Positions 2,469 to 60,334 of a stretch of DNA of 64,000 nt are shown here, one piece after another. Every line of letters starts with the position of its first letter. Within the stretch, counting starts at the first letter, position 1. The stretch comes from Candidatus Kuenenia stuttgartensis (GTDB lineage: Bacteria; Gemmatimonadota; Gemmatimonadetes; Gemmatimonadales; Gemmatimonadaceae). The stretch lies in assembly GCA_943330235.2 (NCBI GenBank), contig CALQGY020000004.1, positions 1-64,000 of the forward strand, read 5' to 3'. A program made the position numbers and the translations under genes. Under the pieces are notes generated by a model, which was not told the origin of the DNA, did no database searches, and saw nothing but the letters and a program-made list of their open reading frames with translations.

Positions 2469-3938
2469 CTACGGGGTCGTTCGTTTCGCCGGGAGCTTCG
2501 CCGCCTGCACGGCCCACGCCAGCGCGGCCTCGCGCGCCGGATCCTTCCCCGCCAGCAGCGCTTGCCGCGTCAGGGGCGTCAGCGCATCCGGCCGGACCCC
2601 GTCACCCTCCAACGGCTTCCCCGTGGGCGACAAGAAATCGGCGATGGCATGATACAGAATGTCCCCGTTTGGCAGCCGCTCCGGCACCGACGGGAGGGCT
2701 TGCCCCGAGGTCTGCGCACCGAACACCCGTGCGCGCCCCAGCGCCTGCAGCCCGCCGGCAAAGATTTCGGTCGTGCTGATGGACAGCTCGTCCACCAGCA
2801 GCGCCAACGGTCCCGCAAACGGCGTCACGGCCCGCGACCGCGTGTCCACACGCCGCGGATTGGCCACGAACTTGAGCGACGCGCCGCGCTGCTGCATCGT
2901 GCCAATGGTCAGCGCGCTGTCGAGAAAATGTCCCGCGATCCCCATCGACATGCCGCCCACGCCGCCGAAATTGCCGCGCACGTCAAGAATGATGGCGTCG
3001 GTATCGCGGAGTGAATCCATTGCCGCATCAAACTGCGGCGACAACACCGGCATCCAGATGTTGAAGCGGATAATGCCGATGGTCTTGCCGCCCTGCGTCA
3101 CGCGCTCATGCGTCAGCGTGGACAGGAGCGGCGGTAGATTGCCGAACTTGGCCATGGTGCCCGTCTCCGCCTGACGCACCATGGTCACCGCCCGCGCCCG
3201 CCCGGACTCGTCGCGGAACGTGGCCACGACCGGCTGCCCGACCTCGCCGGCCAGCAGTTGAGAGGCCACCGTATACGCCACCAGGGCCGCACGACGCGGC
3301 TCCATATCCCGCGCACCGCGGGCAATACGCGGCGCAAGGGCGCACCCATGCACGGACTCGAGAATCCATCCCGTCCGCACCCCGGCACGCGCCGCCGCAC
3401 CGTTCGGCATCACCGCGGACACCGTCGTCGCGCCATCCACCAGCCGGAACTCGGCGCCAATCGTGCCGCTTTCGCCCACCGAGGCCTTGCTCCCCGATGC
3501 GCCGCCGCCATCGCCATCGCTGATTTCGCGCGGAATGATCGAGAAATGTGACTGCTTGAGCCGTCCCACCATCTCCGACAACACGCCGCGCAACTCGCCG
3601 GTGGTCGTCGCCGCGGCCGCCCGCGGGCGCAATGTGTCGCGCAGCGCCGTCCAGTTCACGCCGTTATACGTCGTGTCCCAGTGCGTGCGGGCGATAATGC
3701 TCCACGCGCTGTCAAACGTGACCAGCGGATTCGCAATGGGCGTGCCGGCCAGTGAGGTCGCCGTGGCGGCCGCCGTGGCGGCCGCCGGGGCGGCGCAGGC
3801 GCCATCGGCCGCCGCCGACGCGGGCGAGACCGCGGGCGCCACGCGCGCGCTCCGGTGACAACCCACCACACTGAGCGGCAGCAGCGCGGCGGCGAGGAGG
3901 GCGACCGCCCGCGACGGAACGGGGCTGGGAAGGGACAT
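2469..3938 (-). CDS. S41-family C-terminal processing protease-like lipoprotein
   Basis: 489 residues from the ATG at 3938. This start gives a clean lipoprotein signal (ALLPLSVVGC, lipidated Cys27); an open frame continues upstream to 4205 but that part is Arg-rich and lacks family character. The order is tether, S41 N-terminal helical domain (YNGVNWTALRDTLRP), PDZ-like segment (TIGAEFRLVDGA... GWILESVHG) and protease core. The nucleophile is expected in SISTTEIFAGGLQ, where the first Ser of STTE replaces the usual SASE serine; EGDGVRPD near the end is typical. Such enzymes degrade or trim periplasmic proteins. The lipid anchor and the substitution in the active-site motif distinguish it from standard CtpA/Prc. 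Confidence 0.82.
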   Translation of the reverse strand: MSLPSPVPSRAVALLAAALLPLSVVGCHRSARVAPAVSPASAAADGACAAPAAATAAATATSLAGTPIANPLVTFDSAWSIIARTHWDTTYNGVNWTALRDTLRPRAAAATTTGELRGVLSEMVGRLKQSHFSIIPREISDGDGGGASGSKASVGESGTIGAEFRLVDGATTVSAVMPNGAAARAGVRTGWILESVHGCALAPRIARGARDMEPRRAALVAYTVASQLLAGEVGQPVVATFRDESGRARAVTMVRQAETGTMAKFGNLPPLLSTLTHERVTQGGKTIGIIRFNIWMPVLSPQFDAAMDSLRDTDAIILDVRGNFGGVGGMSMGIAGHFLDSALTIGTMQQRGASLKFVANPRRVDTRSRAVTPFAGPLALLVDELSISTTEIFAGGLQALGRARVFGAQTSGQALPSVPERLPNGDILYHAIADFLSPTGKPLEGDGVRPDALTPLTRQALLAGKDPAREAALAWAVQAAKLPAKRTTP

Positions 3939-4162
3939 GCAGAGGGCGCCAGAAAGGGAAGGGGACCGCACGACAACGCGTACGCGGCGAACGGTAATCG
4001 GTTTCGGAGTGGATTCTGACCGGTTTGGACGCCCGTAACCGTTTACGGCAACGTGCCAAGCACGCCGAAAGGAATTACCATCCACGCAGTACATGCCGGC
4101 TGCGCTTGTCGACTCGCTCACCGCGGTCCGCGCCGGACGCTTCTGCCACGATCCCAACTGCC

Positions 4163-5341
4163 ATGACCACGCGTCTTCATACGCTGCACGCTGCCGGACA
4201 GTCACTCTGGCTCGACTACATCGATCGCGTCATGCTGGGGAATGGTGACCTCGCGCGCCGCATCCGCGAGGATGCGCTGACGGGGATGACCTCCAATCCG
4301 ACCATCTTCGAGAAGGCCCTCGCGGAAGGCGCGTCTTACGATGCGCAACTCCGCGCGCTGCCCGCCGCGTGCTCTGACCGCGAGGCCTTCGAAGCGGTCG
4401 CCACGGCCGATGTCCGCGACGCCTGCGATGCCTTCCGCGGGGTCTACGACGCCACCGAAGGCGTGGACGGCTATGTCTCGCTCGAAGTCTCGCCCGATCT
4501 GGCGCGCGACGCGGCCGGCACAATCGCCGAGGCGCGGCACCTCTGGCGCGTCGTCGATCGCCCCAATCTCATGATCAAGGTCCCGGGCACCATCGAAGGC
4601 GCCGAGGCCATCCGTCAGCTCATCGCCGACGGCATCAACGTGAATGTCACGCTGCTCTTCGCGGTGGATGCCCATGCCCGCGTCATCGAGGCGTATCTCG
4701 CCGGCCTCGAGCAGCGTGCCGCGGCCGGGTTGCCGATCAATCGCATCAGTTCGGTCGCCAGCTTCTTCATCAGCCGCGTGGACTCGGCCATCGACAAGCA
4801 GCTGGACACCATGGCCATCGCGGACGAGGCGCACGCCGACACGCTGCGCGCCCTCCAGGGCAAGGCCGCCATCGCGAACGCGAAGCTCGCCTATCGCCTC
4901 TTCACCGCCTCGTTCAGCGGACCGCGCTGGGCGGCGCTGGCGGCCCACGGCGCACGCGTGCAGCGCCCGCTCTGGGCCAGCACCAGCACCAAGAACCCCG
5001 CCTACCGCGACGTCATGTACGTCGAAGAGCTGGTGGGCCCCGACACGGTGAACACCTTGCCGCCGGCCACGCTCGAAGCCTTCCGCGATCACGGCGAGGT
5101 GCGTCAGTCCGTCGCCACCGAGATGGCCGAGGCCGACCGCACCCTCGCGGCCCTCGAGGCGGTGGGGGTGTCGTTGCAGGCCGTGACGGAACGCTTGCTC
5201 ACGGAAGGGCTCGCGTCCTTCGAACAATCGTTCGTGACCCTGCTGGCCGGTCTCACCGCCAAGCGGGCCGCGCTGGCCGCGTCTTCGACCGCTTCCTCGA
5301 CCGATTCTTCATCTGGAGCACCCGCCGTTGCCGCACACTGA
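4163..5341 (+). CDS. tal: Transaldolase
   Basis: 392 residues from ATG 4163; the frame is open upstream to 4025 but MTTRLHTLHAAGQSLWLDYI is the typical start of the longer (about 370-390 aa) transaldolase type. Landmarks are the Schiff-base lysine K139 in NLMIKVPGT, MTSNPTIFEK near residue 42 and the late STKNPAYRD motif. The enzyme moves a dihydroxyacetone unit between sugar phosphates in the non-oxidative pentose phosphate pathway. It opens a run of central-carbon genes; its stop is 7 bases before the ATG of pyruvate kinase, so the two are probably co-transcribed. The last 20 residues are a Ser/Thr/Ala-rich tail not needed for activity. Confidence 0.95.
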   Translation: MTTRLHTLHAAGQSLWLDYIDRVMLGNGDLARRIREDALTGMTSNPTIFEKALAEGASYDAQLRALPAACSDREAFEAVATADVRDACDAFRGVYDATEGVDGYVSLEVSPDLARDAAGTIAEARHLWRVVDRPNLMIKVPGTIEGAEAIRQLIADGINVNVTLLFAVDAHARVIEAYLAGLEQRAAAGLPINRISSVASFFISRVDSAIDKQLDTMAIADEAHADTLRALQGKAAIANAKLAYRLFTASFSGPRWAALAAHGARVQRPLWASTSTKNPAYRDVMYVEELVGPDTVNTLPPATLEAFRDHGEVRQSVATEMAEADRTLAALEAVGVSLQAVTERLLTEGLASFEQSFVTLLAGLTAKRAALAASSTASSTDSSSGAPAVAAH

Positions 5342-54342: not shown

Positions 54343-54543
54343 ATGATGGAGAAAATTGATGGTGCCCAGATCGCGCTCTATGCCTTCTGGCTCTTCTTCG
54401 CCGGTTTGATCATTTTCTTGCGCCGGGAAGACAAGCGCGAGGGATACCCGTTGGAGTCGCCGCAGGGACCGCGCGAAGGGTGGCCGCCGGTACCAGAAAA
54501 GAAGACCTACATTCATCGCCCGACTGAGGGAGGAACGCACTGA
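54343..54543 (+). CDS. puhA: Reaction-centre H subunit, membrane-helix part
   Basis: 66 residues. A single helix with [20 protein letters not shown] followed by [20 protein letters not shown] corresponds to the first ~60 residues of PuhA (R. sphaeroides [20 protein letters not shown] then REGYPLE). The ORF stops at the point where PuhA links to the cytoplasmic domain, TGA overlapping the next ATG (TGATG). A second ATG one codon in is possible. Encodes the membrane anchor of an H subunit split into two chains; see the neighbouring gene. Confidence 0.9.
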
Positions 54544-55085
54544 TGTCTGAGATCAAAGCGGTTCCCGCCGACCGGTACAACGGATCGCCGCTGATTCCTA
54601 CTGGCAACCCGATGATCGATGGCGTCGGCCCAGCCTCATGGGCGCAGCGGTCGGATACGCCCGACCGCACGTACCACGGTGCGGTCAAAATCGTGCCGAT
54701 GCGACTCGACCCGACGTTCTTCGTTGCCAAGGGCGATCCGGATCCGCGTGGCCTGCCCGTGGTGGCTGCCGACAAGGCGGTCGCTGGTACGGTCGAGGAT
54801 ATCTGGGTTGATCGTGCCGAGCCGCAGGTTCGGTATTACGAAGTGCGCTTGGCCGATGGCTCGCGCACGGTCATGCTGCCTGCCGGCTTTGTGCAGTGGC
54901 CCAATTTCGGTCTCTGGGGCAACGACAAGCTGATCGTCAAGTCAATCACGTCCGCGCAGTTCGCCAACGTCCCGGCCATTGCGGGCACTGAGCAGATCAC
55001 GCTGCTCGAAGAAGATCGCGTGATGGCGTACTACGCGGGTGGTCACCTCTACGCCACCGCGGCGCGGAGCGAACCAATCATATGA
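54543..55085 (+). CDS. puhA: Reaction-centre H subunit, cytoplasmic domain
   Basis: 180 residues without a membrane segment. PLIPTGNPMIDGVGPASWAQ, VKIVPMRLDP and ITLLEEDRVMAYYAGGHLYA align with the PuhA cytoplasmic domain (DGVGPASW and EVTLLEEDKI...GGLMYA in Rhodobacter), starting at about residue 80 of normal PuhA. It is in a different reading phase (+2) from the preceding part, has its own ATG, and overlaps it by one base. Caps L/M on the cytoplasmic side and shapes proton entry to QB. Confidence 0.92.
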   Translation: MSEIKAVPADRYNGSPLIPTGNPMIDGVGPASWAQRSDTPDRTYHGAVKIVPMRLDPTFFVAKGDPDPRGLPVVAADKAVAGTVEDIWVDRAEPQVRYYEVRLADGSRTVMLPAGFVQWPNFGLWGNDKLIVKSITSAQFANVPAIAGTEQITLLEEDRVMAYYAGGHLYATAARSEPII

Positions 55086-56618: not shown

Positions 56619-57680
56619 TTAGGGCAGGCCAGCTCCAGAGGAGGAAGCCGCCGCGCCGCTTACGGCTTTCGCTGCAGCGGGGGCCTTGACGGTCGTGTCG
56701 ACAACGGGCGTCAAGCTCGGAAACGGCTTGCCATCCCATTCCGGACGTCCCCAGAGGGCTGGGTAGTCGCGGACCATCTTGGCGCCGAACAGCGGCCTGT
56801 AGTTGCCGTTGTGGCACGTCACGCACTGCGCCTTCGGTGCGTCACCCATGGATCCGAGCCGCACGGCCGGGAAGACCGTTTGCAGCGGTGCCAGGTAGTT
56901 CGTGTTCAGGTCTCGCACCATCAGGATGCCGTGCATCGCGGTCACGCGTGCTGGCGGGGCCTGTGTCCAACTGGCGAACTGCCGCGTGTTGTGGCAGTAG
57001 GTGCAGTTGACACCGAGGGAGCGCGACTGACTGATCATCAGGGCGTGGGTCCACTCGGTCTGCTTCACGGAGCTCCGATTGGCCTTGGAGGGCGCGACCG
57101 TATGCGAGACGACGCGCGCGCCATCGCGGTCGAGGTAGTGCCGCAGGTAGTCGTTCTGGCTGGAATAGAACCAGAGGCCGTTGGGGAGCGGTTTGCCGAG
57201 GTGGCACGTGTAGCAGGTGACGCCCGTCTGCTTGACATGCGCCGAATACTGGCCGTTGATCTGCCGCGTCATCTGGAGCATGCGGCGTGCGACGACCTTG
57301 GTATACAGCGGCTTGCCGTTGTTCAGTGTATCGGCGGCGAAGTCGGCGACGTTGTGGCAGTAGGCGCAGTTACCGGTTCCGGCCACCCACGTGCTCATCG
57401 CGAGCATGGTGCGGGTGAACTCCGACACCGAGATGTCGTTGAGCACCTGCACGTTTTTCCACGGCAGCGGGCCCGGCGGTGACGCGCCGGCCGGCGGCAG
57501 CGTTGCCGGCAGTTTGACCTGAGCGAACTTCTTCTTCAGGTCCCCACGGTCGTAGTTCTGCTCCATCGCGACGCCGCGATATCCAACCTGCACCGTGTCG
57601 GTGTTGTGATCACCGCAGGCGGTGAGCGCCAGCAGCAACGCTGGCGCACACACACTGGCGGCTCGGGCAAAACGGTTCAC
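56619..57680 (-). CDS. pufC: Reaction-centre tetrahaem cytochrome subunit
   Basis: 353 residues with a lipoprotein signal (LLLALTAC, lipidated Cys22). Four haem motifs: CAYCH (105-109), CYTCH (156-160), CTYCH (226-230) and CVTCH (286-290), each preceded by the methionine/histidine ligand regions typical of PufC. It re-reduces the special pair from the periplasm. The last 30 residues are an Ala/Val/Ser-rich tail. Its start overlaps the pufM stop (ATGA). Confidence 0.97.
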
Positions 57681-58801
57681 GGAATCCTCCGTGCAGAGGC
57701 GGGAACGACGGCGGTCGAATCAGTTTTCTGCTTGGTGGTGTCAACCGGCAGGATGACCGTGCTGGAGTCGATCACCATCGGTGCCGCCACAGGGGCTGCG
57801 TACGACGGGAACGAATCGGGCGCTGTACCCTGGTAGCGTCCACGCAAGAGCTGCTGCTGTTCCGGGGTGAGCGTATTGGCGGCCGGGTAGTTGGACACCA
57901 ACCCGTGCTTCACGCCCCACAGATACCAGTTATCAACGACCGTACCCGTGAGCAGAATGCCAATGCCGCCGGTGAAGGTCGTGAGCACGGCAAACCACCA
58001 CGCCCAGCGGTGAATCGATTCCATCGTCGCATTGAAGCCCATCGTCCAGCGCCAGAAGAGCATGGAGCGTTCGGCCGCGGTGCCACGATCGGTGATCTGT
58101 TCGATTTCGCGTTCACCACCGAGGCGAGCCACGGCCAGAATGGTGGCGGCGTGCATCGCGAACAGCACCGCGCTGCCATACAGGAACACGATGGAGAGCG
58201 CGTGGAACGGGTTGTAGTACAGGTTGCCGTAGCGAATCGAGAACGCCGACGTCCAGTCCAAGTGCGGGAAGATGCCGAAGGGCACCATCTCGCTCCAGCT
58301 GCCCACCAAGAGCGGCTGAATGAAGAACGTCGAGTACAGGAAGATCGCCGAGGCAAAGGCCCAGGGGAGATGCGTGCCCATCTTGAGGGCGCGCGCACGA
58401 CGATACGTGCGCAGCCACCAGAGGGCGATAGACATCGTCAGGAAGAAGCCGGCCATGAGGTACCAGCCACCCTGCGCGAGCGGCGGCAGATGCAGACCGT
58501 ATTGCGGTGGCGGCGGTTCGAGCGCGAGCCACGGTAACTGGCGCGCGAACTCGATGACATTCCAGTTCACCGACGCCCACATGTTCAGGCCGACGATCTC
58601 GAAGGCAATGAATCCGCAGAGGAGCGAGAGGATTCCGAGCGTACCGAGATAGATCGGACCGATCTGTGCGTCGCCGATCTTACCGGCGAGTCCGAAGAAC
58701 CACCCCGATCCCAGACGATTCTCGGCTCCTTCGATGGGAATGCCGGGGTCGGGGGCGGTGCGGATCTGCACGCGTGTAAAGAGGTTCTGATATTCGAGCA
58801 T
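57677..58801 (-). CDS. pufM: Reaction-centre M subunit
   Basis: 374 residues. Five membrane helices; [20 protein letters not shown] and [20 protein letters not shown], with [20 protein letters not shown] holding the non-haem iron glutamate and histidine, are unmistakable. Binds the special-pair and accessory pigments with PufL. After the normal end of M ([12 protein letters not shown]) comes an additional ~55-residue C-terminal tail ([12 protein letters not shown]... [10 protein letters not shown]), Pro/Thr/Val-rich, longer than the ~310-325 residues usual in purple bacteria. Confidence 0.98.
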
Positions 58802-58814
58802 AATGGCCCGCGCC

Positions 58815-59639
58815 TCAGCGCCAGATCGGGAGATTAAGCCACCAGCCCCACCACTCGGGCCAGCCCTTCGTCCAGAAGGGACCGGAGATCACGATGCAGA
58901 TCGCGCTCCAAATGGCCGCCCCGACTGCGAGAAAGAGGCCCAGCCGATGGATGCCGATCGCGCCGATCGAGTAGCCGACCAGGTCGCGGAAGAAAACGTT
59001 TTCGGTTTCGCTGACACCGACCGGCTCTCCCTTCGGGGGATTCGTCACCGAGAGAATGAGCGAGCCGTGCATGGCGAGTGCGAGACAGTTCGTGAAGAAG
59101 AACGTCACGCCAATCATGTGCGCCGGATTGTAGTGAAAGTGGAGGTACTGGTACCCCACGTTCGACACCCAATCGAGGTGCGAGAAAATGCCGTAGGGGA
59201 ATCCATGTCCCCACGCGCCCATCAAGACCGGTCGAATCACCACGAGCGTGGTGTAGGCCAGAACGGCGCCGCCATACGCCCACGGAATGTGCATCCCCAT
59301 GCCGAGCTTCCGGCTGATTTCGGCCTGGCGAAGCGCCCAGCTCCCGAAGGCACCCAACGCACACAGGGTGATGATCTGCCACAGACCGCCCTCACGCATC
59401 GGCGCGAACATCAGGCCGTACTTGAGGTCAGGCGGGGCAATGGAGATTTGCCAGAGGTTCCACGTCGGTCCCATCGCGGCGCCCCAGACGCACAGAATCG
59501 TGCCGAGGGAGGCGAAGAAGATCGTCGTGACACCAAAAAATCCCACGTAGAACGGACCGAACCAGAAATCGAACAGATCTCCGCCGATCAGTGTGCCTCC
59601 GCGGACACGATACTTTTTTTCGAAGCTCAGCATCGCCAT
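58815..59639 (-). CDS. pufL: Reaction-centre L subunit
   Basis: 274 residues from ATG 59639 (a GTG farther upstream would put the pufA/pufL hairpin in the coding sequence). [20 protein letters not shown] begins like all Puf[21 protein letters not shown] holds a bacteriochlorophyll histidine, [20 protein letters not shown] the quinone/iron region. Length is exactly typical. Thirteen bases separate it from pufM. Confidence 0.98.
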
Positions 59640-59683
59640 GGGCGATTTCTCCGGACGAGCAGACGAGAACAGGGCTGGCGTCG

Positions 59684-59728
59684 GCCGGGGATGGCGTCGC
59701 ACCGACACGTGCGATGCGCCATCCCGGC
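59684..59728 (-). promoter_or_regulatory. Strong hairpin between pufA and pufL
   Basis: GCCGGGATGGCG pairs with CGCCATCCCCGGC (one bulged base), extended by TCGCAC/GTGCGA and a six-base loop. It fills the middle of the 105-base gap. In Rhodobacter a hairpin at the same place protects the pufBA segment from 3' decay and raises antenna over reaction-centre mRNA. Confidence 0.85.
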
Positions 59729-59744
59729 GACGACGCGCGACGAA

Positions 59745-59960
59745 TTACCGACCTGGCGGGAGCGGCGACATTTCTGCCGCGGCCGCCGGAGCCGACGCCC
59801 CGACGGGCGCCTGCGCTGCTGACAACGTCCCGTTCTCAATCCACGAGTAACGCTGCGAGCTGAGCAGGATGAAATGAATGACGAACGCGAGCAGCCCCAC
59901 GAAGCCACCAACGGCAATCATGACGCGACGCGGGTCATACATCAGCCAAATACGATGCAT
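59745..59960 (-). CDS. pufA: LH1-type antenna alpha polypeptide (second copy)
   Basis: 71 residues. MHRIWLMYDPRRVMIAVGGF then FVIHFILLSSQRYSWIENG: the bacteriochlorophyll histidine is His29-32 region (AFVIHFILL) with Trp eleven residues later, as in true LH1 alpha. The Ala/Pro-rich C-terminal tail (QAPVGASAPAAAAEMSPL) is long. It lies after the other alpha gene by nine bases and before the hairpin and pufL. Confidence 0.93.
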   Translation of the reverse strand: MHRIWLMYDPRRVMIAVGGFVGLLAFVIHFILLSSQRYSWIENGTLSAAQAPVGASAPAAAAEMSPLPPGR

Positions 59961-59969
59961 GATGACTCC

Positions 59970-60146
59970 TCAGCGGGGGGCGGCGACGGCAGCGGCGGAG
60001 TGCGTCGCGTACTTCGCCTTGAGTGTGCCCGGCCAGTTGAACTGGCTGAAAGCCCACATGTGCATGAACAGCACGGCACCGGCGATGAACGAGCCGATCC
60101 CGCCCATGATCAAATGCGGATCAAGCCCGATCCAAATGCGATACAT
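59970..60146 (-). CDS. pufA: Antenna alpha polypeptide (first copy, divergent)
   Basis: 58 residues, found by reading the strand: MYRIWIGLDPHLIMGGIGSF then IAGAVLFMHMWAFSQFNWPG. The N-terminal IW-X3-DP pattern is that of alpha chains. The histidine (29) is followed by Trp nine residues later (38) rather than eleven, so the spacing differs from the neighbouring alpha. It is preceded by pufB and has no second beta gene. Probable alpha of a different ring or site. Confidence 0.85.
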   Translation of the reverse strand: MYRIWIGLDPHLIMGGIGSFIAGAVLFMHMWAFSQFNWPGTLKAKYATHSAAAVAAPR

Positions 60147-60193
60147 AGAATGCTCCTAGAGCGTGAAGAGGGGGAAGAAGGTTCTGATTGGTA

Positions 60194-60334
60194 TCAGAAC
60201 CAGGGACGCCAGCTCCACGCCAGCAGGTGCGCCATCACCGCACCCAGCACCCACACGCCCGTTCCCGCGATCCAGTACTTGTTGAAGCGGATCGCTTCTG
60301 CCTCGGTCATGCCCTTGTCATCGTACATCGACAT
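60194..60334 (-). CDS. pufB: LH1-type antenna beta polypeptide
   Basis: 46 residues: MSMYDDKGMTEAEAIRFNKY then WIAGTGVWVLGAVMAHLLAW and SWRPWF, with the beta histidine (36) and the WRPW end. GGAGGT stands seven bases upstream of ATG 60334; a second ATG at 60328 is in frame. It starts the puf operon and is the only beta gene here. Confidence 0.95.
   Translation of the reverse strand: MSMYDDKGMTEAEAIRFNKYWIAGTGVWVLGAVMAHLLAWSWRPWF

Follow-up and report, generated by a model that had tools for sequence, protein, structure and literature searches.

The locus studied here raises the question of how a single light-harvesting beta gene could serve two different alpha genes. The initial annotation had proposed that one beta is used twice, pairing with one alpha chain in an inner LH1 ring and with the other in an outer ring. 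In the analysed window, the whole stretch of 64,000 nucleotides, the genes lie on the minus strand and are ordered, in the direction of transcription, as pufB, pufA2, pufA1, pufL, pufM and pufC. The single beta gene, pufB (60194-60334; PF00556), encodes 46 amino acids when counted from the ATG at 60334, an alternative start at the ATG at 60328 being possible. It precedes pufA2 (59970-60146) and pufA1 (59745-59960), and these are followed by the genes for the reaction-centre L and M subunits (pufL, 58815-59639, and pufM, 57677-58801; both PF00124) and the reaction-centre cytochrome (pufC, 56619-57680; PF02276). The translations gave products of 46, 58 and 71 aa at the places originally assigned to them, and the two His-Trp spacings reported there, 9 and 11, were recovered as His29-Trp38 (58-mer) and His29-Trp40 (71-mer). 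A further tryptophan of the 58-mer, Trp31, lies two residues past His29 and had gone unmentioned.

In order to identify the three chains, we searched the PDB and compared them with the published double-ring structures. The 58-mer matched the LHh-alpha of 7o0u with 84 bits (E 2.3e-23) and that of 9h19 with 57 bits, and scored 22-23 bits against the LH1 alphas of the same entries. Conversely, the 71-mer matched the LH1 alphas of 9h19 (134 bits, E 7.8e-39) and 7o0u (131 bits, E 5.9e-38), and reached about 22 bits with their LHh alphas. The top matches of the 46-mer were the common beta chains of 7o0u and 9h19 (E 4e-12). Since each alpha matches the alpha of a different ring in the solved structures, we assigned the 58-mer as PufA2, of the outer ring, and the 71-mer as PufA1, of the inner ring. 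PufA1 was 86% identical to that of G. phototrophica and 89% to that of G. groenlandica, and PufA2 showed 67-70% and 45-54% identity, respectively, varying with the stretch compared. Two genomes assembled as one contig each provided references: wherever residues were compared, the alphas of G039 did not differ from the 7o0u chains, and those of G074 were the alphas of 9h19. Judged by these sequences, the source organism is a congener of G. phototrophica and not G. phototrophica itself. Both alphas showed a synonymous excess, with dN/dS of about 0.05-0.35 in seven pairwise comparisons. The specific PDB matches indicate that the three-gene arrangement is not due to chance. Pfam LHC (PF00556) scored PufA2 at 18.9 bits, under the cut-off of 23, so that such genes are easily missed and standard annotation can overlook pufA2.

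That the beta is common to both rings has already been published for G. phototrophica and G. groenlandica (PMC10214105, PMC12817894). Chain counts in the PDB entries show one beta sequence present 40 times per particle, LHh-alpha 24 times and LH1-alpha 16 times. Across 9h19 and 9h22 the totals are 80 beta, 48 LHh-alpha and 32 LH1-alpha chains, which gives 40:24:16 per entry. Across the four entries 7o0u-7o0x they are 160 beta (149 + 11), 96 LHh-alpha (94 + 2) and 64 LH1-alpha chains. The alphas of the source genome are orthologous to these LH1 and LHh chains and no other antenna genes were detected, in line with the original proposal. We consider it very probable that pufB, pufA2 and pufA1 together supply all antenna chains of a double-ring RC-LH1-LHh (RC-dLH) complex. 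By orthology, PufB and PufA1 would form the inner LH1 ring of 16 heterodimers, PufB and PufA2 would form the outer LHh ring of 24 heterodimers, and excitation would travel from the outer ring through LH1 into the reaction centre. The two-ring assembly, its stoichiometry and its spectrum are thus those expected of the source species from its orthologues.

A different arrangement would be that both alphas mix in one heterogeneous LH1 ring, like the multiple pufA products of Allochromatium. Such mixed rings are known (PMC10214105), A. tepidum has a multigene pufBA, and outside Gemmatimonadota the top matches of PufA2, though weak, were the alpha3 chains of mixed rings (7vrj, 8wdu). However, PufA2 scored only 26-27 bits against alpha3, far below its 84 and 57 bits against LHh-alpha, it formed a distinct clade with a support of 100, and the two solved orthologous complexes sort their alphas into separate rings, all of which makes a mixed ring very unlikely. 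The initial annotation had also named the finding that would overturn a shared beta, namely pucBA-like genes elsewhere that supply the outer ring while one of the two pufA genes is silent. LH2-type pucBA pairs do occur in Gemmatimonadota outside the pufA2 group, at L061:4766-5353 (G135), L060 (G393), L055 (G151), L057 (G093) and L056 (G167), with an alpha that starts with MNxGKIWxVVxP, and in G288 an LH2-type beta match was located beside a second scored frame. In G135 the pair is followed by a PucC-like transporter gene. Against this reading, searches of the source genome with PF00556, a PufA2 profile and Gemmatimonadota PucA yielded no antenna gene beyond pufB, pufA2 and pufA1; with a genome completeness of 91.6%, this is strong though not complete evidence that a puc pair is absent. 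G039 and G074, each a single contig, likewise contained only these three antenna genes. In addition, all genomes found to carry pufA2 had an intact copy, and the gene is under purifying selection, which argues against a silent alpha. An outer ring supplied by pucBA thus appears extremely improbable, the least likely of the readings considered here.

Across the phylum, pufA2 and pucBA were found apart. Our surveys covered 395 genomes of the phylum and 179 genomes of the family. Of the 29 genomes with pufA2 in the phylum survey, none carried a pucBA pair, and no genome was seen with both. The count was 0 of 29 versus 6 of 14 (Fisher p 5e-4), a value that is descriptive and not an independent test, as both traits follow the tree. 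A literature search found no description of pucBA in Gemmatimonadota, which is not proof of its absence. Within the family, 36 out of 179 genomes (genera g1, g2, g21, g24 and g142) carried pufA2, always adjoining pufA1 and in the three-gene order of the source genome, and lineages outside this group had a pufBA without room for a second alpha. When PufL was placed in a tree rooted with outgroups from purple bacteria, all 33 rows with pufA2 fell into one group (SH-aLRT 88), and presence of the gene amounted to one change; this distribution fits a single origin inside Gemmatimonadaceae. In the alpha tree PufA2 was one clade (support 100) with no resolved sister group from about 60 columns. A tree joining the PufA1 and PufA2 of A2-bearing genomes was not rejected (p-AU 0.86), a result compatible with pufA1 duplication as the source of PufA2 but not a proof of it. 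These analyses place the outer ring as a probable single invention inside Gemmatimonadaceae, in a lineage in which no LH2 was found.

One locus departed from the three-gene order. In a Gemmatimonadaceae MAG (L014, JALOPO010000140.1), positions 3106-4172 contained five antenna genes, followed by pufLMC. Two betas, each succeeded by an alpha2-type chain (of 70 aa after the first beta and 59 aa after the second), come before alpha1. If the assembly is right, this genome encodes two alpha2-type chains and two betas. The matches of G419 lie at the coordinates of L014 and represent one genome, not two, and the family search revealed the doubled operon only there. The PufM of the same MAG (L014:5147-6610), of 487 aa, carries a C-terminal OmpA-family domain (PF00691, E 5e-15), so that a reaction-centre subunit is, oddly, fused to a domain of the peptidoglycan-binding type.

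PufA2 also varied at two residues related to colour in the solved complexes. In G. phototrophica, the only hydrogen bond to B800 comes from LHh alpha Ser15, while in G. groenlandica Ser15 is present, the B800 pigment is absent and the red shift was attributed to the rotamer of Trp31 (PMC12817894). Because G. groenlandica is without the B800 pigment, Ser15 is not required for the double ring. Among 34 PufA2 sequences, some of them from the same species, 12 had Ser at position 15, the others having Gly, Ala, Thr, Met, Leu or Phe there, and position 31 was equally divided between Trp (17/34) and Phe (17/34), Phe also appearing in close relatives of the source genome. The PufA2 of the source genome combines Gly15, which it shares with its nearest group, with Ser19, and retains both His29 and Trp31. 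From Gly15 we predict that B800 would be weak or absent in the source species, and species with Phe31 would be expected to show no red shift of the Trp31 type. Such natural variants at positions 15 and 31 make the 2025 structural model of B800 binding and colour testable across species. A broader proposal would treat PufA2 as a once-evolved, freely diversifying outer-ring module: the beta-alpha2 doubling in L014 could lead to a third ring or to two kinds of outer ring, and lineages that have lost Ser15 and/or Trp31, the source genome among them, would no longer bind B800 or reach the red-shifted state. We regard this proposal as speculative and rather unlikely.

Two RNA hairpins were predicted on the minus strand of the antenna operon. 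Directly after pufA1, between this gene and pufL, 24 pairs form a hairpin at 59678-59736, and the stretch has a folding energy of -43.9 kcal/mol (z -4.5). In an alignment of 12 congeners, 97.6% of the cells paired, and covariation analysis showed four pairs changed on both sides, compared with none or one in slid versions. In purple bacteria, a hairpin between pufA and pufL protects the antenna part of the mRNA. By analogy, the covarying hairpin after pufA1 may protect the three-gene antenna mRNA. A perfect 9-bp hairpin at 60180-60201 covers the pufB stop codon, but G. phototrophica, G. groenlandica and most relatives do not conserve it, and among the genomes compared it was particular to the source genome. 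For this reason, we rejected it as a general setter of beta excess.

The H subunit of the reaction centre is split in the source genome, as in the solved RC-dLH complexes. On the plus strand, puhA1 (54343-54543; PF03967 positions 4-64) corresponds to the transmembrane half (RC-Ht) and puhA2 (54543-55085; PF03967 positions 82-133 and a PRC-barrel) to the cytoplasmic half (RC-Hc). It has been reasoned that the origin of pufA2 and that of the split puhA both fall between the gene transfer and the divergence of Gemmatimonas and Pseudogemmatithrix (PMC12817894). A PRCH match was obtained in 41 genomes, some of them from families without pufA2, and in all 41 puhA was split or had a stop within the matched stretch. 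Since the split or interruption also occurs in genomes that lack pufA2, a joint origin is not favoured and, on this evidence, the split of puhA looks older than pufA2.

Compared with known systems, the locus shares with the purple-bacterial single-ring RC-LH1 (pufBA) the pufB-pufA1-pufLMC core and an alpha1 with His29 and Trp at His+11, but the single-ring operon lacks a second alpha gene between pufB and pufA. LH2 (pucBA), present in purple bacteria and some Gemmatimonadota, is likewise a peripheral antenna that feeds LH1, but it uses separate beta and alpha genes, its alpha begins with the motif given above and the pair was not found in the source genome. The closest resemblance is to the RC-dLH complexes. 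As in G. phototrophica (PDB 7O0U-7O0X), the order is pufB-pufA2-pufA1 with one common beta and both alphas orthologous, puhA is split and no other antenna genes were found; the differences are Gly15 in place of the Ser15 that bonds B800, a clearly diverged beta and the hairpin over the pufB stop codon. As in G. groenlandica (PDB 9H19, 9H22), there is a three-gene system with a closely similar PufA1 and Trp31 is kept, but in PufA2 position 19 is Phe there and Ser in the source genome, and position 35 is Ile there and Gln in the source genome. The split puhA also occurs in relatives without pufA2; here it accompanies a pufA2 between pufB and pufA1, a PufA1 with Trp at His+11 and a single beta with no puc genes. 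Sharing of the beta in the source species would follow from the solved orthologues. Altogether, the locus represents the double-ring antenna already described in one more species, and thereby adds to the cases in which, with unusual economy, a single beta chain serves two antenna rings.
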